Program-made: the position numbers and the translations under genes
The notes under the pieces: generated by a model
Seen by the model: the letters and a program-made list of their open reading frames with translations, nothing else
Databases searched by the model: none
Told to the model about the DNA's origin: nothing
From: Candidatus Hydrogenedentota bacterium
GTDB lineage: Bacteria; Hydrogenedentota; Hydrogenedentia; Hydrogenedentales; JAGMZX01
Assembly (NCBI GenBank): GCA_029556545.1
Contig: JAKQEQ010000137.1
Location: 1 to 11,988 of the forward strand
Length of the DNA stretch: 11,988 nt
Direction of reading: 5' to 3'
Shown: positions 1-11,819 of the stretch, in pieces
How the letters are laid out: each line of letters opens with the position of its first letter
Numbering within the stretch: position 1 is the first letter of the stretch

Positions 1-176
1 AGTTTTCCCGGTTTGCCCGAATCGAGCGCGCGGCGGATCGCGAAGCGCACGGCCGAAGGATAGATCGTCTCGGCCGTCATCGTGCCGTCGAGGACCGGCG
101 ACTGGGACGGGTCAAGACCGGTGCCCTGCGCCAGCGTTTCCGCCCTTGCAATGATTTCTGCCAGTGTTCGTGCCAT
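1..176 (-). CDS. N-terminal part of an unknown phage protein, cut by the window edge
   Basis: An open frame begins with ATG at 176 and runs off the left edge with 58 complete codons. The visible part begins MARTLAEIIARAETLAQGTG and continues through a Pro/Ser segment (LDPSQSPVLDGTMTAETIYP) into a basic helix-like stretch. It starts 3 nt after the TAA of the NuiA-like gene, so it is very likely the next cistron of the same late operon and translationally coupled to it. Only a weak purine-rich stretch lies upstream, inside the end of the preceding gene. No domain or function can be assigned from this fragment; its position suggests a head-completion or tail protein. The frame is certain, the role is not. 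Confidence 0.75.
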   Translation of the reverse strand, partial: MARTLAEIIARAETLAQGTGLDPSQSPVLDGTMTAETIYPSAVRFAIRRALDSGKPGK

Positions 177-179
177 CTT

Positions 180-563
180 TTACGTTTCCACGGTCATTGT
201 CGTGGCCCCGGCGATCATGTTGCCGTCGCACAAGCCGATGAACAGCAGTCTGTGTGTTGCACCGGGCGTGCCGGCCAAAACCGCGAACAGGCGAACGTCG
301 TCGAGATGCGAACTAAGAACGTCGTCCAGCAGAATCCAGTTCGGATCGTGGTTCGACTGGACCGCGATCGTGTCCGGGTAACTGCGTTCACCGATTTGGC
401 TGAGCGGCGGCCAGCCGAAGGCCCGTACGACGTTCTCCGGCGTGAAGTCGCCCTTGAGCGCGCGCGGAGCCGAGACGGACGTTACCGGAAAATCCGTCTC
501 GGACATGTACGAGAGGCCGTCGCAGACCTCATCGATCATCGGCAAGACCTCGGCGACCGTCAC
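180..563 (-). CDS. NuiA-like nuclease inhibitor family protein
   Basis: I read this as a 127-aa protein starting at GTG 563. That GTG overlaps the TGA of the upstream gene as GTGA and has an AGGAG ribosome site 8 nt ahead. The longer frame with an ATG at 656 would add an Arg-rich shadow of the upstream gene and is rejected. The N-terminus (EVLPMIDEVCDGLSYMSETD, from residue 5) and the C-terminus (GNMIAGATTMTVET, ending in Thr127) match what I recall of the Anabaena nuclease A inhibitor NuiA, a small alpha/beta protein that plugs the active site of the non-specific DNA/RNA endonuclease NucA. In NuiA a glutamate in the MSE motif and the C-terminal threonine are, as I recall, the inhibitory residues. 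Both have counterparts here, Glu22 and Thr127. The middle differs and includes a WPPLSQIGERS segment. It sits among virion genes, so anti-nuclease or DNA-protection duty is an inference. The family call comes from motif memory, not a search. Confidence 0.7.
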   Translation of the reverse strand: MTVAEVLPMIDEVCDGLSYMSETDFPVTSVSAPRALKGDFTPENVVRAFGWPPLSQIGERSYPDTIAVQSNHDPNWILLDDVLSSHLDDVRLFAVLAGTPGATHRLLFIGLCDGNMIAGATTMTVET

Positions 564-838
564 AGCCCGTGCTCCTGACGCTCGAGCGCGAGCGCTTCGG
601 CGTCGGCGCGGGCGATCACCCAACCGGCCTGCCGGTCGCGCCCGAACACCTTGCACGCCGTTTCAGATGGATTGAGCGCCATGAATTCGGATTCCTCGTC
701 GTCAAGAATAGTCGGCGGCGGCGCGGACTCTTCCGTTTCTTCCGTCACGGCTTCGACCGCTTCGGCTTCCGGCGCTTCAAGCGTTTCCGTTTCTTCCGTC
801 ACGGCCGCGACCGCTTCGGCGTTCTTTCTCTTTGCCAT
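560..838 (-). CDS. Small acidic protein with a duplicated Glu-rich segment
   Basis: A 92-aa protein with a good AAGGAG ribosome site 7 nt before ATG 838, 16 nt after the previous gene. After a short basic start (MAKRKN), residues 7-52 are almost all Ala, Val, Thr, Glu and Pro, with VTEETE occurring twice 18 residues apart. The C-terminal 40 residues look folded (EFMALNPSETACKVFGRDRQ, then a Trp- and Ala-rich helix). The duplication is visible in the DNA as a 36-nt direct repeat. The last bases overlap the GTG of the NuiA-like gene, so the two are probably co-translated. Function is unknown. Small acidic, disordered proteins in phage late operons can be decoration, chaperone or DNA-mimic proteins, but nothing here decides between these. 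Confidence 0.85.
   Translation of the reverse strand: MAKRKNAEAVAAVTEETETLEAPEAEAVEAVTEETEESAPPPTILDDEESEFMALNPSETACKVFGRDRQAGWVIARADAEALALERQEHGL
731..820. repeat. Imperfect 36-nt direct repeat inside the acidic protein gene
   Basis: The stretch at 731-766 recurs at 785-820 with two mismatches in 36 bases and a 54-nt period, which is 18 codons and in frame. It encodes the duplicated Glu/Val-rich segment. It looks like an intragenic tandem duplication of a low-complexity segment. Copy number could vary between related phages. Confidence 0.9.
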
Positions 839-854
839 TCGTATTCTCCTTCGT

Positions 855-1592
855 CTATCCGGCTACCGGCTCGGCCGACGCCGCTTTTATCGGTTGATCG
901 GGAAGGGCAAGCATTTGCGCCCTGCCCTGAATGAGCGCCGCCGTCTGTTCGGCGGCAAGATTCTGGTACCACTGAGCTTCCGGCACGAACCAGCCGTTCT
1001 GCGCGAGCCGCGCGAGCACCTTGCAGACCCACAGTCCTTCAAGCACGGACGGAAGCGGCGAGTCGCCGTTCGCGTCGTAGGCGGCCGATTGCGTGGTATA
1101 CAGCCACCCGCAGCCGCGAAAATAGACGTTCGTGGTCGTGTGGAAGATCTTCGTGCCCTCGATTGCGAAATACCTGACGGCGACCTTCCACGTCGAATTC
1201 GGATTTGCCACGCGCCGAAGCACGACCTGAAGCGGCATTTCCCTCATCGGCGTGTTGTCGGCCGAATCGAAAACGCCGTCGAACGTGCCGATGAACGGCA
1301 CCGAGGACCCGTTGGCCGTCGGAACGTTTCCGCCGGACGCGACATTGGCCGACTGGATCGCCAGCGCCGCGCGGTACATCGCGTTCGTCGAATTCGCGAT
1401 GATCTCGGCGATTTCCTGCTCGATCGCGAGAATATCCTGCTTGAGCGCGGACGGCGGAACGAGCGCGGAATCCAGCTGAGTCGCGACGGTCGCGGTCGTA
1501 TAAGCCGTTTCGCGAGCCGCCTTGTCGCCGTCGATGAACATATCGGCGCGAAGGGCGACGGCACGGGCAATTCTCTGATAGGCGATCGACAT
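855..1592 (-). CDS. Unknown phage protein, 245 aa, probable virion or neck component
   Basis: Starts at ATG 1592, directly abutting the TAA of the previous gene (TAAATG), with a short AGGAA upstream. Residues 1-85 look helical and Ala-rich (MSIAYQRIARAVALRADMFI). Residues about 90-180 look beta-rich, with Trp and aromatic residues (WKVAVRYFAIEGTKIFHTTT), and the last 60 residues look helical again and Gln/Ala-rich. There is no signal peptide or membrane segment. I cannot name a family. Its place two genes after the probable head-tail adaptor suggests a neck, stopper or tail-associated structural protein. Confidence is high that it is a gene and low on role. Confidence 0.85.
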   Translation of the reverse strand: MSIAYQRIARAVALRADMFIDGDKAARETAYTTATVATQLDSALVPPSALKQDILAIEQEIAEIIANSTNAMYRAALAIQSANVASGGNVPTANGSSVPFIGTFDGVFDSADNTPMREMPLQVVLRRVANPNSTWKVAVRYFAIEGTKIFHTTTNVYFRGCGWLYTTQSAAYDANGDSPLPSVLEGLWVCKVLARLAQNGWFVPEAQWYQNLAAEQTAALIQGRAQMLALPDQPIKAASAEPVAG

Positions 1593-1976
1593 TTAGTTCC
1601 TGTTCGGGATCGGCCACCGCTTGGCGGTGATGATTTCCCCGGAGTCGTTGAACAGACGCCAGTAAACGCCTTCCGGCGCAAGGCCGACGCGCGCGGTCTG
1701 GTCCGCCGTAAAACCGGCGACGGACACGGGGCTGGCCGAATGCTCGACATAGGCCGCGAAATCCTTGGTCTGCGACACGTGGATTTCCACGTTGCCGGTG
1801 TTGCCGCCGACAGCGGTGATCTCCACATCGAACGGCACGCCGTTGAAACCGATCGGTTCGGTATAGTCCTGATCGTCCATCTGCGAGGAATGCGGTTCGG
1901 CAAGTTCACCGTCCGCATTTGCTTGCAAAAGCAACCGGCCGTTATCCACGTAGGGAAAAATCGTTGCGCATTTCAT
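1593..1976 (-). CDS. Small beta-rich phage protein, 127 aa, unknown
   Basis: I place the start at ATG 1976 (MKCATIFPYVDNGRLLLQAN), 2 nt after the TAA of the adaptor-like gene. A TTG at 1991 would lengthen it by five residues inside the upstream gene and has no ribosome site. No clear Shine-Dalgarno precedes the ATG, so translation probably relies on coupling. The sequence alternates short beta-like stretches with turns (FDVEITAVGGNTGNVEIHVS, GVYWRLFNDSGEIITAK), consistent with a small beta-sandwich such as a decoration, stopper or tail-completion protein. No family was recognised. It ends in TAA joined directly to the next ATG. Confidence 0.8.
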   Translation of the reverse strand: MKCATIFPYVDNGRLLLQANADGELAEPHSSQMDDQDYTEPIGFNGVPFDVEITAVGGNTGNVEIHVSQTKDFAAYVEHSASPVSVAGFTADQTARVGLAPEGVYWRLFNDSGEIITAKRWPIPNRN

Positions 1977-1978
1977 AG

Positions 1979-2716
1979 TTATTCGTACCAATATCCGACG
2001 TGGCCGACCGTTTCGGTCTGAATACTCCGGATGAATCGTTCAAAGAGTCCTGTCTGTTCCGCGGCCTGCGCCGCAAGCATTTTTGCCAGTTCGTCCCGGC
2101 GGCGGCGGTTGCCGTCCGCGTCCAGTCCGTCCCATTCGCTGCGCGCCACGAGGGCCAGCGCGGTCCGCGTCGTCCGGTAGTCGGTCAGTTCCGGCAGCAC
2201 CGGCACGTCCGACAGTTCGAAATCGCTCCATTCCTGCCGTCCGGTGGCATAGTGGATCGTGTAAACACGTCCCGCAACTTCGGGGATCGGCATGATCCGC
2301 ACCTTGCGCGTGCCGTCGGCTTTGCGCAGAAAGGCGAGTTTTTCGCCCTGATCGGTGAGCATCGTCAGGCCCGAACTCGTCGGGATAACCTGAAAATCGT
2401 AGTTCTGATCGGCCAGTTCGCCCGGCCAGTCGGTGAACGGGATCTGCGCGACGACGTTATCGGCCAGCGCGCGGTACGCGACGAACGGCTTGCCGAACGC
2501 GGGAAGGTCCAGCGTGTACTCGGCCTGACCGGCGACGCTCGTGACGGTCGTGGAATTGTCGGTCCACGGCCGGCCGCTCAGGTTGAGTTGCGTCGTCATG
2601 AACTGCTCGCACCGGATCAGTTCGCTTACGATCTGATGCGGGGTCGGGCGCTGGGCCTTCGGAAAGTCCAGCAATTCACGGACGCGGCTGAATTCTTCCT
2701 CGCGCGACAATGCCAT
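1979..2716 (-). CDS. Probable head-tail adaptor (connector) protein
   Basis: A 245-aa protein starting at ATG 2716 immediately after the TAA of the preceding gene. An AGGAGG lies 14 nt upstream, a somewhat long spacing. The layout is helix, beta region, helix. Residues 1-45 are helical (REEEFSRVRELLDFPKAQRP). Residues 55-160 are beta-rich and include an RIMPIPEVAGRVYTIHYATG segment. Residues 175-230 are helical, with an acidic patch and a run of four arginines. The I-x-P-x-P followed by Y-x-I-x-Y pattern and the flanking helices recall adaptor proteins of podoviruses (T7 gp11 / P22 gp4 type), which sit under the portal and receive the tail. Position downstream of portal, scaffold and capsid fits. 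This is a structural guess from pattern, not a confirmed family hit. Confidence 0.6.
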   Translation of the reverse strand: MALSREEEFSRVRELLDFPKAQRPTPHQIVSELIRCEQFMTTQLNLSGRPWTDNSTTVTSVAGQAEYTLDLPAFGKPFVAYRALADNVVAQIPFTDWPGELADQNYDFQVIPTSSGLTMLTDQGEKLAFLRKADGTRKVRIMPIPEVAGRVYTIHYATGRQEWSDFELSDVPVLPELTDYRTTRTALALVARSEWDGLDADGNRRRRDELAKMLAAQAAEQTGLFERFIRSIQTETVGHVGYWYE

Positions 2717-3871
2717 TTAGATCGTCTCGACCTCCTTTCTCGGTACCGTGATTTCGGTCAGATCGTTGTCCAGAAGAACGGTGATCTTGCCGAACGGCAG
2801 CTTGGCCGTCACCTGCCCTTCGCGGCCGTCCGCGAGCCTGACCCGTTCCGCAAGCCCGTTCGTTGCGCCTTCCTCGACGGTCCATGCCGTCGAAACGTCC
2901 GGTGCATCGTCGGACGGCATGTCCTCGACAAGCGCGGCGGCCACGTCAGGCGTGACGGCGCCGGTCTCGACGGCCGTTTCGATCGCCTGCGTGACCTGCG
3001 GGATCTTCGCCGCGCGGTCCGCCACGGCCAGATTCGCGAGCGCCTTGACCGCTTCCGTCAGATCCGACAGATTCGATTCCTGCATCTGCGCGGTCGCGTC
3101 CGGCGCGGCCAGATTGAGCGCGGCGAAAAGCATCCGCGTTTTCGTCCCGATCGCCGTTGGTTTGCCGGCGGTTTTGGCTTTGGCGTAGTTGTTCCGCGCG
3201 GCGTCCGTCTCCATCCGGGCATAGGCTTCGAATGCCTGGACGGCCTGAAATGCGGCGGCCAGCACGGTCCGCTCGAAATCATTGGTCACGAACGCGCGGC
3301 GCGTCTCGAAATGCTTTTTCAGTTCGGCGAGCGTCGGCGGCGGCAGAAAGTTGCCGGACGTGCTTTCGGGAAACAGGAACAGCTGCGCGGCCGCGCGCTC
3401 CTTCTGGTTCCGCACGGGGACCTCCACGATTCCGTCACCCTTGCCGGTCAGATTCGCGATGTCGTCGACCGGATAGCAGGGACGGCGCAGCATGCCGTCG
3501 TGCGTTCCGTCGGAACGCAGACCGATCGTCTTGTACCGAACCGCGCCGGTGAGGGGATCGAGGCCGTCCGGCACCTGATACGTCGCCAGCCAGTGCTGGC
3601 GGTCGCGCGGGTGGACGTTGACCGACGCCAGCGTTTGGTGATGCTCGCGGAGCTCGGTGATGATGCACCGCGGAATGAACCCGTGAACGTGCGTGAGCGT
3701 CGCGCACGGTTTGACGATGCCGCCGGGGGCGAAGCGCGGATCGCGCTGCTTGGCGTCGGGCGAGATCACGTCGCCGACGTAAAGGATGAAACGGGAGCCG
3801 GTCTTGTTCTGGGTCGGCACCACGACGTGGAAATCTTGCTGTTCGGCGGTCGCCGCCGCGTATGGATTCAT
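2717..3871 (-). CDS. Unknown phage protein, 384 aa, with a KOW/SH3-like C-terminus
   Basis: Starts at ATG 3871, 3 nt after the previous stop, with GGGAG about 10 nt ahead. The first 160 residues are mixed and His-rich (HVHGFIPRCIITELREHHQT near 61-80) and may form an enzyme-like or virion domain. Residues 180-310 are strongly helical and Ala-rich (VTNDFERTVLAAAFQAVQAF). A low-complexity acidic linker at 315-335 leads to a small beta domain at about 343-381 (RVRLADGREGQVTAKLPFGK) of the type seen in KOW or SH3-like folds. No catalytic motif is obvious. It lies between the capsid gene and the adaptor, so a virion role is likely but unproven. Confidence 0.8.
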   Translation of the reverse strand: MNPYAAATAEQQDFHVVVPTQNKTGSRFILYVGDVISPDAKQRDPRFAPGGIVKPCATLTHVHGFIPRCIITELREHHQTLASVNVHPRDRQHWLATYQVPDGLDPLTGAVRYKTIGLRSDGTHDGMLRRPCYPVDDIANLTGKGDGIVEVPVRNQKERAAAQLFLFPESTSGNFLPPPTLAELKKHFETRRAFVTNDFERTVLAAAFQAVQAFEAYARMETDAARNNYAKAKTAGKPTAIGTKTRMLFAALNLAAPDATAQMQESNLSDLTEAVKALANLAVADRAAKIPQVTQAIETAVETGAVTPDVAAALVEDMPSDDAPDVSTAWTVEEGATNGLAERVRLADGREGQVTAKLPFGKITVLLDNDLTEITVPRKEVETI

Positions 3872-3874
3872 GAT

Positions 3875-4735
3875 TTATGTTCTCCCTTGTTGGATTTTTC
3901 TTTCAAACGCCTCAATCGCGCGCTCGCCTTCCTCGCGGGCCGCGTCAAGGATCTTCTGCCGTGACACGGACGGATCTTCAATCATCGCGTCCGGTACCAT
4001 CACGAGCGGACTTTCGGCCGCCGTTTCGCGCGTCATCGCGGCGAACTGCCGGACGGCATGATCGTCGTAGTTGCTGTTCGATGCCCGGGCATAGCGGATA
4101 AGATCGCGGTCCGGCACCTTGAACGGATCCACTTGCCGGATACCGGCCAGTTCCAGACCCTTCCTGCGCTCTTCAAGGTACGGGATCACCGCACGCGGAT
4201 GGGCATAAAGGCCGTAGCAGACCTCACCGGCGGCACCGGCCGCGCGGCAGCAGAAGCCGCTGTGTTCCGCCACGGTATATTGCCAGAGATATTCGTCGGC
4301 CGGGACCTGCTCGGGCCGCACCTGCACGTGAACGCGCCGCTCGGAACAGTACCGCTTCGAATCGCGGGTCCAGAACGGCGCGATCTGTTCCGGCTCGAGG
4401 CGCGTGAGCAGGATGAACCGGGGAACGAATATCTCGCGCAGCGAGCGGTCATGCTCGTCAATGACCATTTTATAAAGGACATGCGGCTTGCGCTTCGGCG
4501 GCGCGGTCGGCCGTCCGAGATCGTTCCATTCGTCGAAGTACTCTGACCAATACCGCCGGTCGCCGTTCCAGACGATCTTCGCGATCGATTTGTTCCCGCG
4601 CGTCAGGCCGACGATCGAATCAACGTCGCGCTGCACCGCCGCGAGCTCCTCGTCGGAAACGGGCGCTGCGAACGGCGGAGACGTGATCCACGCCTTTGGG
4701 ACGTTCAGCGGATTGTAGGCAAGGGCAACCGACAT
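3875..4735 (-). CDS. Unknown phage protein, 286 aa, directly downstream of the capsid terminator
   Basis: The frame opens at ATG 4735, only 6 nt past the U tract of the terminator after the capsid gene, with no Shine-Dalgarno. A second ATG at 4739 is out of frame. No in-frame alternative start lies close upstream. The protein is rich in aromatic and basic residues (KIVWNGDRRYWSEYFDEWND near 53-72). It has four cysteines (130, 162, 163, 173) in the middle and a charged C-terminal helix (residues 256-286). There is no membrane segment. I do not recognise the family. Gene order makes a head or neck protein likely. Expression should depend on read-through of the terminator. Confidence 0.8.
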   Translation of the reverse strand: MSVALAYNPLNVPKAWITSPPFAAPVSDEELAAVQRDVDSIVGLTRGNKSIAKIVWNGDRRYWSEYFDEWNDLGRPTAPPKRKPHVLYKMVIDEHDRSLREIFVPRFILLTRLEPEQIAPFWTRDSKRYCSERRVHVQVRPEQVPADEYLWQYTVAEHSGFCCRAAGAAGEVCYGLYAHPRAVIPYLEERRKGLELAGIRQVDPFKVPDRDLIRYARASNSNYDDHAVRQFAAMTRETAAESPLVMVPDAMIEDPSVSRQKILDAAREEGERAIEAFERKIQQGRT

Positions 4736-4778: not shown

Positions 4779-6107
4779 TTAGACAAGCGACTGGCCGCGC
4801 GAAACCTGCGTGATCGCGGGCATCTCGAGACCTTCGATGTAAACGGCGGTGTTCGGCGCGCCGTCAACTCCTTCCGCAGCGTCGTCGCCGCGTCCGTCCC
4901 AGGCGAGATTGCACGCCTCACCCCAGTTCTGCTGGAATTCGGTCGTACCGAACCCGGACGAGCCGAGATACTGCGTGTCGCCCTTCGAGATCTCCATGAT
5001 CTCGTGCATGCGGACGTAGAACAGCGAATTGCGGTCGTTGATGTGGATTTCACAGTCCTCGAAATCCTCGTCGATGACCCACATCGTATCGCCGTCCTCG
5101 TAGTGCTGCGGAAGACCGTACGTTTTCATCGAGTCTTCCTTCGCCAGCCGGAGATCGTAGCCGAACGTCGAAAGGGAGTCGTAGTTCCCGTTCGTCATGC
5201 GGCCGATACGCGCGTTCCCGGCGTTGCCGTCGTTGCCCGCGACCTTGCAGTGCAGTTTCGCGGTATTGACAAGCGTCGGCGTCGGCGGTCCGCTGGCCCC
5301 GTCAACGGCGGTCGCGCGGGCAAACGAGTTCGTCGCCGTGCTGATGCCCTGATAGACACGCGCGGCGTCGTCGTCGTTGTGGTAGCCGAGACCGTATTCG
5401 ACGAGGTTGTAGTGCCCTTCCTTCACGATGATGTCGCCGGCGACGGTCGTTCCGCCGTCGGTCACGACGATCACCGCGGTCGTCGCCGAGGCTTTCGACG
5501 TGATGTAGAAGGTCGCCGTCACCACGCCGGTCGCGGGCGTGATGGACTGGTACATGACGCGGCGTCCGGCCGTCGTGCCCGGCGAGACCGCCAGGCGTAC
5601 CGTGCCCTTGCTGCGGCCGCGCGCCGTGTTGTCGTAGGCGCACGTGATCGTTCCCGAACCGCCGCCGACGGTAATGACCGCAAGCGCGCCGTCGCCTTTG
5701 CCGATCGCGTACCAGTTGCGTTCCTGAAGGTAGGTCTGCAAGACCTGATTGCGCTGCGCGAACTTGTCGAACGGCGCGTTGCCCTGCCGGGCGTCGTAGT
5801 CGTGGAAATGCTCGAACTGAACGACGAAGCCCGCGAACGTCAGTCCGATGAACATTTTCGCAAGCTGCTGCGGAACCATCGGTCCGAACGCGGTCGTCCC
5901 GCCGATCGGATTGAGCGCGGTCGAACCGTGCGGCACGTTCTGCATATACGGGAATTCGTAGCCCGCCAGCGACATGTTGCCCTTGGCGCCGCGTCCCTCT
6001 TTGAGCGAGGCGCGAGTCAGGGCTTTCTGATTACGGAATTTGGATACCGTTTTGCGCATTTCGGCGCGTTGTGCGGCCGCTTTATCGGCCAGACTCATGA
6101 AAGACAT
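4779..6107 (-). CDS. Major capsid protein
   Basis: A 442-aa protein starting at ATG 6107 with GGAG 10 nt upstream; a second ATG three codons in is too far from that site. The N-terminal 45 residues are basic and helical (AAAQRAEMRKTVSKFRNQKA), typical of an arm or delta-like region facing the scaffold. The core then includes GTTAFGPMVPQQLAKMFIGL and a C-terminal segment with GSSGFGTTEFQQNWGEACNL. Residues about 141-231 are a Gly/Thr/Val-rich beta domain (GTVRLAVSPGTTAGRRVMYQ, YITSKASATTAVIVVTDGGT) that looks like an inserted Ig-like or I-domain. The call rests on size, composition, the gene order portal-scaffold-capsid and the terminator right after it. HK97 fold is inferred. There is no protease gene beside it. 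Confidence 0.8.
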   Translation of the reverse strand: MSFMSLADKAAAQRAEMRKTVSKFRNQKALTRASLKEGRGAKGNMSLAGYEFPYMQNVPHGSTALNPIGGTTAFGPMVPQQLAKMFIGLTFAGFVVQFEHFHDYDARQGNAPFDKFAQRNQVLQTYLQERNWYAIGKGDGALAVITVGGGSGTITCAYDNTARGRSKGTVRLAVSPGTTAGRRVMYQSITPATGVVTATFYITSKASATTAVIVVTDGGTTVAGDIIVKEGHYNLVEYGLGYHNDDDAARVYQGISTATNSFARATAVDGASGPPTPTLVNTAKLHCKVAGNDGNAGNARIGRMTNGNYDSLSTFGYDLRLAKEDSMKTYGLPQHYEDGDTMWVIDEDFEDCEIHINDRNSLFYVRMHEIMEISKGDTQYLGSSGFGTTEFQQNWGEACNLAWDGRGDDAAEGVDGAPNTAVYIEGLEMPAITQVSRGQSLV

Positions 6108-6145: not shown

Positions 6146-7768
6146 CTATCCGGCGAAACCCGACAGGTCGCCGCGCAGTGCGCGCTCTCCCGGACTCGTC
6201 AGAACCTTTCTCAAATCTTCAAGCGGCATCTTGTCCCAGTCGGTGCCGCCTTCGGCGGGCTGGCGACCGGTCGCCTTCGCCTTGACCGCCGCGACTTTGG
6301 GCGCGAGCTCGATCTTTTTCTTGAGCGCGGCGGACGCGCCCGACGACACGGAACGCGCGAGCTTGGCCACGACTTCTTTCTGTTCGGCGGCGATCTCCCT
6401 CAAGACGCCGGCGAGCGCGCGCTTCGTGTTCTCGATCGCCTGCGGATTGACGCCTTGCGTCGCCGTCTGCTGGCTCAGTTTGTCCTGCATGTCGAACAGC
6501 CGGTCAAGCAAACCGCGACCCTTCGACCAGTCGTGGACGATGCCGCGCGTTTTCAAGGTTTCACGCGCAAGCGACGCTTCCGTTTCGTCGGGCGAATAGG
6601 CAGTACGGGCAAGCGCGACGATCCCCGCCGCCACGACCCCGGCGGCCGGTCCCTCGACGAACGACAATGATTTCGCCACCTGATTCGAGATGGAGTCGGC
6701 GATCGTGTTGACGGTCGTCATGAACTCGCGGCCGACGGCTTCAAGCCGCTGCGCCTCCTGAACCTGCGTCCGCTGCGCGTTCTCGGTCTGGGCCTTGCGC
6801 GTCGCGTCGTAGCCGAACTGGATCTGCTTGAGAACACCGTTGAGGCGCTGGATCTCCTGCCGGGCCGCGGCGCGGTCCGCTTCCGTCGCGTATTCGTCCT
6901 TGAGCACCGTCAGGTGTTCGCCGAGCGCGCCCACGATCCGTTCTCGGTCCGGATGACGCCAGAACGCCTCCGCCACGGCCGCTTCAATGCCTTCGGGAAC
7001 AAAGGACGGCGCCGGGAATTCCCCGTTGTTCGAAAGGAACGTGTCGAGCGACTCCATCTGCGTGTCCGAAAGGCCGAATCCGTCGCGAATGAATTCCTGA
7101 AACCGCGTGTAATTGCGGTATTTGTCGGACGGTGCGGAATTGAGATCGATCAGCAGCCGTTCCGATTCGTTCCGATACTCGGTCGTGAGCAGTTTGACAA
7201 GGCTTTCGGTGTTCGGCACGAAACGGCCCGTTTCCTGATCCTGAACGTGATCCACAAGATCGTTGAATGCGCGCGTGATCTGCGAGACCCGTTCAAGATC
7301 GCCGACGGCCTGATACTGTGCCGCGATCTGCTCGGCAGTGGCGGCTGAATCGCGGTAGTGATCTAGCACCTGCTGCAACGGTGCCGGGATCTCAAGCTGA
7401 CTGAGGTACGTTTCCGCTTCGGCGCGGAACGTGTCGGCATCGGCGTTCTCGGTGAATGCGAACGCAGTCACCACATCGGCATCCGCCGGGGCGTCTTCGG
7501 CGGCCTGTTCCTCCGCCGCGGGCGCGGGCTCATCGCCGTCGGCAGGCTCGGCTTCGGCGGCGGCCTGATCCGCGGCGGGATCGGGCGACGGCGGTTCCGG
7601 CGTGCTCAGCCGATCGGGAATGCGGCCGGTCGCCGCGGCCTCCGCAAGCTCTTCCTCGGTCCAGTCATCGAAAGACAGGGCCGGTGTTTCGGGCGCGGCC
7701 GGCGCGGGTGCGATTGTCGTGTCGGGTGCGGTCTGCGGCGCCGCCTCAGTAGTTAATTTCGGATCCAT
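6146..7768 (-). CDS. Capsid scaffolding protein
   Basis: A 540-aa protein starting at ATG 7768, one base after the portal TAA, with GAGGG in the end of the portal gene as ribosome site. Residues 1-98 are disordered, acidic and Ala/Pro/Glu-rich. Residues 115-350 are mostly helical, with coiled-coil-like heptads near 290-350 (AARQEIQRLNGVLKQIQFGY). A hydrophobic Gly/Ala patch occurs at 370-388. The C-terminal region at 475-505 is Lys-rich, followed by an amphipathic end with DWDKMPLEDLRKVL. An acidic N-terminus, long helices and a basic C-terminal capsid-binding end are usual for phage scaffolds, and the gene sits exactly between portal and capsid. There is no visible protease active site. It ends 38 nt before the capsid start. 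Confidence 0.8.
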   Translation of the reverse strand: MDPKLTTEAAPQTAPDTTIAPAPAAPETPALSFDDWTEEELAEAAATGRIPDRLSTPEPPSPDPAADQAAAEAEPADGDEPAPAAEEQAAEDAPADADVVTAFAFTENADADTFRAEAETYLSQLEIPAPLQQVLDHYRDSAATAEQIAAQYQAVGDLERVSQITRAFNDLVDHVQDQETGRFVPNTESLVKLLTTEYRNESERLLIDLNSAPSDKYRNYTRFQEFIRDGFGLSDTQMESLDTFLSNNGEFPAPSFVPEGIEAAVAEAFWRHPDRERIVGALGEHLTVLKDEYATEADRAAARQEIQRLNGVLKQIQFGYDATRKAQTENAQRTQVQEAQRLEAVGREFMTTVNTIADSISNQVAKSLSFVEGPAAGVVAAGIVALARTAYSPDETEASLARETLKTRGIVHDWSKGRGLLDRLFDMQDKLSQQTATQGVNPQAIENTKRALAGVLREIAAEQKEVVAKLARSVSSGASAALKKKIELAPKVAAVKAKATGRQPAEGGTDWDKMPLEDLRKVLTSPGERALRGDLSGFAG

Positions 7769-7769
7769 T

Positions 7770-10355
7770 TTATTTTTCCCTCATTCGTTGGTTTGATTGT
7801 CTCAAGGCCTCAAGTTCCATCGCCCGGCGATGATCGAGATCGCGGCCCTCCTGTTCGCGGCTGAACTGTTCCTCGGCTTCGATCAGGCCCGCGGCGCGGT
7901 TGAGCATTTCGCCCTGCACCGCCTGTTCCGCTTCCTGCGCCTGCTGCGGCGCGGCCATTGCCTGCGAGACCTGGGCCGCCTGCGCCTGCAAGGCCAACTG
8001 ACCCTGCTGTTGGAGCATCGCGGGGCGCAGCTGCGCGTCGCGGTCCATCGTCATGTGCGTTTCGATCAGGGCCATGACGGCGGCCTGCATGGTCGCAGAC
8101 CATGACTGAACCTGGTCGTCGTCCAGATATTCCTGCAAGAGCGTCGCCTTGAGTCCGTGGTTCTCCTCGAACGGAAAGACCTTTCGCCGCAATTGCCGGA
8201 CGAGCTCGGCGCCGGTCTGTTCCGGCGGAAAATACGCGCCGGACAGCTGAGCGATCATGTCCGCCTGCTCGGATAGTTCGGCGAGTTCGTCGATGCGGGA
8301 CTGGCAGACGATGAGCAATTCCGTCTGGTTGAACAACGGCATGTCGTCGACGCCGAACTTGTGCGCCCACCAGACCGCGATTCGCGGATTGACCTGAATG
8401 ATGTCGAGGAACGAGCCGCCGAAGAACTTCGAGTTCTCGAGCATCATCTTCGTCGCCTCGCGCTTTTCGAATTCGTTCGTCGGAATCTCGGAATCCGGCA
8501 CAAAATCGCATTTGACGTTCTCGGGCAGGTCTTCGGCGCCGATGAAACGGCCGCGCGTGATCGCGAACTTGTCGCCGCTGCCGAAAAAGCGCGGGATCTG
8601 CTGCGTTTCCACGAACAATTCGATGATCTGCTCCATCAACCGCGCCCGGCCCCATCCCTTGACCGAAAGGGGCGACATGGCACGGAGCCGGTTCTGCGCC
8701 GCAAGAAGCTGCTGGCCGCCGAGAGTATCGACATTCACGCGGTTGTCGGCGACGCCGGACGTGAAATCGGTCGTCTGGAAGCAGATGTTGAGCAGATTGG
8801 TCAGCTGCGCGACCATCGCCATGTTCGACTGGTTCGCTTCGACGTTCTGCATCTGCCAGATGGCCTGATTGATGTTCGTGTAGTTGGTTTTCGAAAGATC
8901 GAGACCGACGACGCCGCCCGGCCGCAAAAACGCCTGAACTTCCTTCTGAGTGACCGCGTTGCGATCGTAGGCGATCCCGCCGCCCGCGCCGAACCGCTTG
9001 ATGGTTTCAAGCGCGGCGGAGTGGGCGATATTGAGATCGCGCGAAGTCTCGATCGCGTCCGACGTGCCTTTGCCGAGCCCGGAATGCGACTGGATGTGAT
9101 AAACCGTACCGATCTCGCGCCGCTTTTCGGCGAACACGCCGGCGATCACGCGCATTTCATTGAAGCCCATCACGCCGAGTCCGTCCGGGAAGATCTCTTC
9201 GAGCGGTACGTTGGCGGGGATGGTCTCGCCGGAAACGGTCTTTTCCGCCTTCCCTAATTTCAGACCCGCGTAGCACTCGGGCAGATAATGCTCCTCGTGC
9301 AGCACCGTCACCGGCAGATTCGCGCGCTGAGCCGATTCGCCGAGCGAATCGCGGCCGAGACCCTCGACCGAACCGCCGCGGCGGCCGATCGCGTTCAAAA
9401 CCTGAAGATGAATGTCGGAATCCGGGTCCTCCCGGTGAATTTCGATCCCGAGGATCGATTCAACGACGCGGGCCGAGACCTCCGACTTATAGTGAAACCA
9501 CGGCGATTCATGCACGAACACGCGCATATCCCAATTACAGCCGGGTATCGCCAGAAGTTCGGCGCTGATATCGCCCTGGGAAATTTCCTCGACACCGGTG
9601 ATCTCGTCAAAATCGAAATCCTGCGCGGGCGTCAGCGCGGGAATGTTCGGTGAACCGCATTCGGGACACATCGGCATGCCGGGCAGGTCCTTCCGCTCGA
9701 AATCCTCCGCTTTTCCCTCATGGCCGCATCCGGCGCACATGCCGTAGGACTCGAACAGGACACGACGCCGGTTCTCGACGATCGGCTTGAGCTCGCTCAG
9801 GCGGTTCAGCCGGTGATCGTAAAAGGGCCGGATGACCGCGCACCCGTAATCCATCATCGACAGCGATTCGCGCTGCTCGAATATCTCGGTAAAGATCTCG
9901 CGCTGATAATGGCCGATGACCTGCTCGATGATGGCATGCTGGATGACGGCGCGGTTCGTGTCGCCGAAATGCCGTACCCGGAGCGACGGTTTGGACGCCT
10001 GCCAGATCGCCGTCAGGTTCGAGGAGTTGACCTGCGCGAGCGGCACCATATGGAGTTTGCGGCCCTTGCGCGGCAGCGGTTTGATAAGGGCGATCGCGCC
10101 CCGGATCGGATCGCGCACCGCCTCGACGTTCTTGGACGCGCGGAGCGCGGCGCTGAGGCGGCCGATCTCGACGATCTCGCGCTTCTGTTCGGTATTCTGG
10201 TTCGCGGTATCCGCGTGAAGCTGCTGGATGATCTGGCCGAGCGTGGAATCGGCATAAGCCCTCTCGCCGCGGTCCTTGAGTTCGGACAGCGGTTTGAGCG
10301 GGGCCAGATTGCGTGCCCCTGCCTTGATCTTCTGTTTTCCTGCGTCTAGCGGCAT
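7770..10355 (-). CDS. Portal protein, large, with zinc-ribbon-like insert
   Basis: An 861-aa protein from ATG 10355; no clear ribosome site precedes it and no alternative start is close by. It would form the dodecameric ring at one capsid vertex through which DNA is packaged. It has a helical N-terminus (1-170, with SMMDYGCAVIRPFYDHRLNR), then an insert with CxxC at 207/210 and CxxC at 230/233. Next comes a mixed region (250-400), a long helical stem-like region (450-760) and a Gln/Ala-rich coiled tail (770-861, AQAAQVSQAMAAPQQAQEAE). The size is above most portals (roughly 500-760 aa), like podoviruses with long barrels. The downstream scaffold and capsid genes support the call strongly. Expect self-assembly with the scaffold and interaction with an unseen terminase. 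Confidence 0.85.
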   Translation of the reverse strand: MPLDAGKQKIKAGARNLAPLKPLSELKDRGERAYADSTLGQIIQQLHADTANQNTEQKREIVEIGRLSAALRASKNVEAVRDPIRGAIALIKPLPRKGRKLHMVPLAQVNSSNLTAIWQASKPSLRVRHFGDTNRAVIQHAIIEQVIGHYQREIFTEIFEQRESLSMMDYGCAVIRPFYDHRLNRLSELKPIVENRRRVLFESYGMCAGCGHEGKAEDFERKDLPGMPMCPECGSPNIPALTPAQDFDFDEITGVEEISQGDISAELLAIPGCNWDMRVFVHESPWFHYKSEVSARVVESILGIEIHREDPDSDIHLQVLNAIGRRGGSVEGLGRDSLGESAQRANLPVTVLHEEHYLPECYAGLKLGKAEKTVSGETIPANVPLEEIFPDGLGVMGFNEMRVIAGVFAEKRREIGTVYHIQSHSGLGKGTSDAIETSRDLNIAHSAALETIKRFGAGGGIAYDRNAVTQKEVQAFLRPGGVVGLDLSKTNYTNINQAIWQMQNVEANQSNMAMVAQLTNLLNICFQTTDFTSGVADNRVNVDTLGGQQLLAAQNRLRAMSPLSVKGWGRARLMEQIIELFVETQQIPRFFGSGDKFAITRGRFIGAEDLPENVKCDFVPDSEIPTNEFEKREATKMMLENSKFFGGSFLDIIQVNPRIAVWWAHKFGVDDMPLFNQTELLIVCQSRIDELAELSEQADMIAQLSGAYFPPEQTGAELVRQLRRKVFPFEENHGLKATLLQEYLDDDQVQSWSATMQAAVMALIETHMTMDRDAQLRPAMLQQQGQLALQAQAAQVSQAMAAPQQAQEAEQAVQGEMLNRAAGLIEAEEQFSREQEGRDLDHRRAMELEALRQSNQRMREK
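9653..9737 (-). other. Four-cysteine zinc-ribbon-like motif within the portal protein
   Basis: Residues 207-233 of the portal contain CAGC and CPEC, 19 residues apart (Cys207, 210, 230, 233), in the form C-x2-C-x19-C-x2-C with Gly after each pair. This is the spacing of a treble-clef or zinc-ribbon site. It is an insertion in the portal's upper half and presumably stabilises a loop; zinc binding is inferred, not shown. Confidence 0.65.
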
Positions 10356-11234: not shown

Positions 11235-11819
11235 TTAGTAATCGCCGAGGTTCTTCCAGAACACGGTGATGGTGCCGTTGACGATCAGGCTGCACGCCGT
11301 TCCGCCCACGTTGTGATCCGCGTCATCGACGAGGAAGTTCAGATAGAGATCGATCGGCGTGGTATGGCCGTCGAGCGTCGTGCCGCGTTCGGTCGCGCCG
11401 GAATATCCGGTCGCGGTCGTCGCACCGGCGACAGCCTGCGGCGTCGCGGTCGTCGGAATGAAATTCTGCTCCGTGGTGGAAAGCGAGTTGTTGTTGCTCG
11501 CCGCGGCGCTGCCGAGTCCGAAATCGCCGTCCCAGTCCGCGTTGACTCCGGCGCTGTTTTTGGTGATTGCGAGATTGGCCACCGAACCGTCGTTGGCGAT
11601 GATCCCTGCCGGAAAATCGTAGATCTTCTTGCTGCCGTACGCGACGACACCGGCCTCATCGGCCAGCGCGATCTCGACGTTCGTGAACTTGAAAACCGTG
11701 CGATGGTAATTGCCGTCGCCGAATTCCGTGATCTTGAGGCCGGAAACCGCCGGCCGCGATCCGATGCCGCGAATCGTTTTCGGAACGGGCACCCTCCGTG
11801 CTTGATAGTTGTCGCTCAT
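11235..11819 (-). CDS. Probable virion structural (decoration-like) protein, 194 aa
   Basis: I choose ATG 11819 (MSDNYQARRVPVPKTIRGIG), which has AGGAG 7 nt ahead. An upstream ATG at 11867 lies inside the terminator stem and is rejected. The protein looks beta-rich with little helix: a segment near 33-60 (GNYHRTVFKFTNVEIALADE), a Ser/Thr/Ala/Asn-rich central stretch, and an end with YLNFLVDDADHN and ITVFWKNLGDY. To my recollection it resembles a group of uncharacterised virion proteins common in environmental phage contigs, but I cannot verify this. It is the first gene after a terminator and heads the structural operon. Decoration or head-fibre function is a guess. Confidence 0.75.
   Translation of the reverse strand: MSDNYQARRVPVPKTIRGIGSRPAVSGLKITEFGDGNYHRTVFKFTNVEIALADEAGVVAYGSKKIYDFPAGIIANDGSVANLAITKNSAGVNADWDGDFGLGSAAASNNNSLSTTEQNFIPTTATPQAVAGATTATGYSGATERGTTLDGHTTPIDLYLNFLVDDADHNVGGTACSLIVNGTITVFWKNLGDY

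Follow-up and report, generated by a model that had tools for sequence, protein, structure and literature searches.

A divergent NuiA-family protein encoded in the head-gene operon of an otherwise unknown tailed phage

Gene content of the window

The stretch of DNA analysed here (the window) is one entire contig of the assembly, 11,988 bases long, in which no end overlap indicative of circularity was found. All 13 accepted complete genes are encoded on the minus strand, and the features considered below are the following.

1..176, minus strand: next gene after the NuiA-like gene, represented by its start only (ATG at 176-174) and running off the contig; no PHROG match
180..563, minus strand: NuiA-family protein, 127 aa (Pfam, own profile, alignments, AlphaFold2 fold)
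560..838, minus strand: small acidic protein upstream of the NuiA-like gene, 92 aa; no convincing family match
572..576, minus strand: AGGAG ribosome-binding site, read in the sequence
855..1592, minus strand: operon gene without assigned function, 245 aa; open reading frame searched against Pfam and PHROG
1593..1991, minus strand: operon gene without assigned function, 132 aa; weak match to phrog_10969 (E 0.013)
1979..2716, minus strand: neck/connector-like protein, 245 aa, placed only by position and sequence style; no profile match
2717..3871, minus strand: operon gene without assigned function, 384 aa; open reading frame
3875..4735, minus strand: operon gene without assigned function, 286 aa; open reading frame
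4779..6107, minus strand: major capsid protein candidate, 442 aa; phrog_14242, major head protein (E 4.3e-4)
6146..7768, minus strand: scaffold-like acidic protein, 540 aa, placed by its position between portal and capsid
7770..10355, minus strand: portal-like protein, 861 aa, placed by size and order; no convincing profile match
11235..11819, minus strand: phrog_11997-type protein (E 2.6e-26); IMG/VR relatives; Pseudomonas phage Rollin

The contig is a fragment of the head-gene operon of an otherwise unknown tailed phage, whose putative portal, scaffold and neck proteins are assigned from gene order and size. The virion-operon setting proposed in the earlier note is borne out by the matches to phrog_11997 and phrog_14242 and by the co-directed genes, and the translational coupling of the NuiA-like gene to the virion genes through a GTGA overlap was also counted in favour of a late structural operon. 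Its place in the operon implies late production of the NuiA-like protein and nothing further. Among five other window genes scanned in IMG/VR, the one at 11235-11819 alone gave relatives; these share 54-62% identity with it and adjoin capsid-like genes, in the gene order as interpreted here. No match to the portal-like or capsid proteins was found in phage records or IMG/VR, and the source of the fragment is far from any known phage.

The phrog_11997 domain is also present next to capsid-like genes of unrelated phages (L031, L033-L035), in some cases at the C-terminal end of a longer protein, and appears to be a head-associated domain of wide occurrence. The portal-like protein, for its part, holds a zinc-ribbon-like stretch, CAGCGHEGKAEDFERKDLPGMPMCPECGSP, which is unusual in a portal and is matched by Pfam Zn_ribbon_8 at E 0.7 only.

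The contig was binned with a bacterial genome (G000) belonging to a small phylum, of which 68 genomes, all of one order, were searched. Its tetranucleotide make-up is unlike that of the other bin contigs (0.89-0.90, compared with 0.98 among those contigs themselves), and the bin therefore need not represent the host of the phage.

Sequence and predicted fold of the NuiA-like protein

The NuiA-like open reading frame occupies exactly positions 180-563 on the minus strand and begins with GTG, 8 nt downstream of the AGGAG site. This GTG overlaps the TGA of the preceding gene (560-838) as GTGA, and the TAA is separated by 3 nt from the ATG of the following one. The product carries DGLSYMSETDFP at residues 15-26 and ends in MTVET. 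Both the reading frame with its N-terminal motif and terminal threonine and the tight spacing to its neighbours had been described in the earlier note, and all are present in the sequence.

NuiA is known to protect the cell that makes it from a secreted nuclease, NucA; its C-terminal T135 contacts NucA, and Asp75-Trp76 is likewise a contact in the NucA-NuiA complex. It inhibits NucA competitively by covering the site where DNA binds (PMC5758888), with a pKd of 11.49 (PMC5374557), and its E24 is the active-site (metal-bridging) glutamate of the complex (PMC5374557). In the phage protein, E22 of the SET/MSET motif aligns with E24, and T127, the last residue, corresponds to T135. Of 16 other family members in our alignment, 15 keep the SE-motif glutamate and 14 end in threonine. 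W76 of the phage protein matches W76 of NuiA in one alignment and not in another, and D75 is replaced or shifted; the Asp75-Trp76 pair is not universal within the family.

The Pfam nuclease A inhibitor family (PF07924) matched the phage protein with 23.4 bits, above the cut-off of 22.1 (E 7.8e-5), within residues 6-58. As this covers the first half only, the remainder was tested by full-length methods. A profile built from NuiA and 16 other members from Chlorobiales and Bacteroidia (17 sequences) gave 31.2 bits over residues 5-127, including the last residue, whereas 20,000 shuffled versions of the phage protein reached 8.7 bits at most. Global alignment with NuiA, whose residue letters were checked against PDB chain 2o3b_B, reached z = 6.7, and none of 2000 shuffles equalled it; the same held for local alignment (z = 7.5; 0/2000), where the margin is thin (score 60, shuffle maximum 59). 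Identity to NuiA is only about 20-27%, and about 12 residues are absent where NuiA has the start of a long helix, in the second helix region. Judged by these comparisons, the likeness to NuiA is far above chance.

Structure prediction from the 17-sequence alignment yielded a confident AlphaFold2 model (pLDDT 90.6, pTM 0.85). Foldseek against the PDB returned a single significant match, 2o3b_B, which is NuiA from the NucA-NuiA complex (E 6.9e-8; the next was 0.1), and VIA-align superposed the model on this chain with Z 17.2 and 2.0 A rmsd over 122 of 127 residues. An earlier deposited NuiA model, 1j57, came second (Z 7.7), and no viral protein structure model matched at E < 0.001. The predicted fold does not count as evidence separate from the homology, since the input alignment consisted of NuiA relatives and the control from the single sequence was poor and uninformative (pLDDT 46). 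The gene at 180-563 encodes a divergent member of the NuiA family, as the earlier note had supposed; the profile search and the structural comparison it had proposed both agree, and the two residues it had singled out, the glutamate and the terminal threonine, are retained.

Distribution of the family and its candidate targets

Genomic context links the family to its nuclease in several lineages. The nuiA gene adjoins the nuclease gene in Trichormus, a NucA homologue adjoins the inhibitor gene in Nodularia, in a Chlorobiales contig and in one Bacteroidia genome, and in three further genomes the two lie ∼3.5 to 10.5 kb apart. A PF01223 nuclease is encoded in 14 of 16 carriers of the family; within the Bacteroidia it occurs in 13/15 carriers and 46/96 non-carriers (Fisher p = 0.005), an association for which the larger genomes commoner among carriers may account in part. 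The function of the family thus appears to be tied to NucA, and extending inhibition of a NucA-type nuclease to its members by analogy is reasonable, if not certain.

Most Bacteroidia genes of the family (L013-L022, L026) have no adjacent nuclease gene, the genome usually encoding one or several, and several of their products carry long N-terminal extensions. Two others (L024, L025) lie beside a peptidyl-prolyl-isomerase-like gene; their products have lost most of the SE motif as well as the terminal threonine, which suggests that their function has altered.

The same gene was also sought in related phages, as the earlier note had advised, and none came to light. No NuiA-type protein was recovered by tblastn of the phage protein and NuiA against 50,697 phage records, by searches of PHROGs with eight family members, or by IMG/VR scans with the phage protein and two NuiA-based alignments. 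These searches detect mainly close relatives and do not prove the absence of NuiA-type genes. A relative in other phages, which would be a sign of selection on the gene, was thus not found in the sets searched, and the gene may encode a nuclease inhibitor of a kind absent from these collections. In the 68 genomes of the phylum of the bin, PF07924 likewise gave nothing at threshold; the search also missed the window's own gene, and members this divergent therefore escape it.

Two matches were rejected. One, from IMG/VR (L001, 4773-4871), falls at the C-terminal end of a terminase large subunit and is confined to 33 matching residues; the similarity of that end, THLTDAVGYWIETDFPVTSRKAP, to residues 10-32 of the NuiA-like protein was taken as chance. 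The other (G036, E 1.8e-4) falls inside a nucleoside-hydrolase-like gene.

The suggestion of the earlier note that a NucA of the host is the target gained no support from the bin. No NucA-type nuclease was found in the 12-kb contig, nor was any PF01223 or PF13930 nuclease encoded in G000, which may not be the true host of a phage that is itself fragmentary; NucA-type nucleases occur in 8 of the 68 genomes of the phylum. The candidate targets are three: a nuclease from the true host or from cells nearby, one encoded by the phage beyond this fragment, or some other enzyme. Given the ∼20-27% identity and the ∼12 missing residues, binding to NucA itself cannot be assumed.

Proposed function and comparison with known systems

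The explanation favoured here, held with modest confidence, is that this late-operon protein most likely inhibits a NucA-type nuclease in the manner of NuiA; we infer the binding, the identity of the nuclease, the timing and the benefit. The target would be a non-specific DNA/RNA endonuclease of the NucA (beta-beta-alpha-metal) type, and the protein would plug its active site, E22 of the SET motif reaching the metal there and the C-terminal T127 making contact with the site. Made alongside the virion proteins, it would keep the nuclease off the phage DNA during packaging or around lysis.

Two alternatives accept the family assignment. In the first, which is unlikely, the NuiA fold was recruited for some other late job, whether as virion component, assembly factor or inhibitor acting on an unrelated host enzyme, and no longer serves to inhibit nucleases. 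The location of the gene among virion genes, the shortened helix region, the lack of a nearby NucA target and the loss of the C-terminal threonine from two PF07924 members (L024, L025) are consistent with such recruitment; however, both inhibitory residues are retained despite ∼75-80% divergence elsewhere, and no known viral protein is structurally alike at E < 0.001. Rather unlikely too is that the protein confers immunity, the same phage encoding a NucA-type nuclease elsewhere than in these 12 kb, such as a DNase that is carried in the virion or made late, from which the inhibitor protects the phage's DNA. Cellular genes of the family do adjoin or lie near their nuclease, and phage GBSV1 has a NucA-related non-specific nuclease (PMC2390534), yet the fragment holds no nuclease and the whole of G000 no PF01223.

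The remaining alternatives question the identification of the protein or of the phage. That the contig is chromosomal or a domesticated element is very improbable: its binning with a bacterial genome and its many genes without a family match would fit such an origin, but the phrog_11997 protein, whose IMG/VR relatives adjoin capsid-like genes, the capsid match to phrog_14242 and a tetranucleotide make-up apart from that of the bin contigs argue for a phage. It is even harder to credit that an unrelated phage protein resembles NuiA only through a short N-terminal motif shared by chance, as could be argued from a Pfam match confined to residues 6-58 and from the similar 33-residue stretch in one phage terminase. 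The full-length profile match that includes the C-terminus, the global alignment score and a confident model with NuiA as its only PDB match all speak against coincidence.

Under the favoured explanation, inhibition of a NucA-type nuclease, the gene could belong to the first phage-borne NuiA-type lineage, produced late, possibly packaged, and protecting phage DNA against NucA-type nucleases that hosts or competing bacteria secrete or keep in the periplasm, a proposal that is tentative and rather doubtful as it stands. NucA/EndA-type nucleases are usually regarded as nutritional enzymes; if the proposal is true, phages meet a barrier in these common 'scavenging' enzymes. With a family member in a late phage operon and no partner nuclease beside it, it becomes testable whether such nucleases limit phages and have in turn prompted a viral inhibitor. 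An otherwise featureless phage gene also gains a name, and the SE...ET signature, with ET at the very C-terminus, can be used to find further genes of this kind.

Phage proteins that neutralise host nucleases are known from other systems. The RecBCD inhibitors gp5.9 and Abc2 (PMC9836394) are different proteins with a different target and are compared here by role. The phiKZ protein gp37 (Dip), which inhibits host RNase E, is likewise a phage protein blocking a host nuclease and differs in size and target; its superposition on the model is weak (Z 5.8, 3.9 A) and tied with human Maf1, a Z below 8 being no evidence of relationship. Nin of Bacillus subtilis, an inhibitor of NucA/NucB, also acts on a secreted His-Me finger nuclease, and has no meaningful sequence likeness and little structural likeness to NuiA (PMC5758888). 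Closer counterparts are the Chlorobiales (L008/L010) and Bacteroidia (L009-L026) proteins, which match the same profile and mostly share the SE...ET signature; unlike the phage gene, theirs are chromosomal, usually with a NucA in the genome, and in the short stretches examined none had phage head genes around it. With NuiA of Anabaena/Trichormus (PF07924; PDB 2o3b, 1ktu, 1j57) the phage protein has in common the predicted fold, length, SE motif, C-terminal -ET and full-length profile. It shares only about 20-27% identity and lacks ∼12 residues of the second helix region, and its gene lies in a structural operon, whereas that of Anabaena/Trichormus lies next to the nuclease gene.
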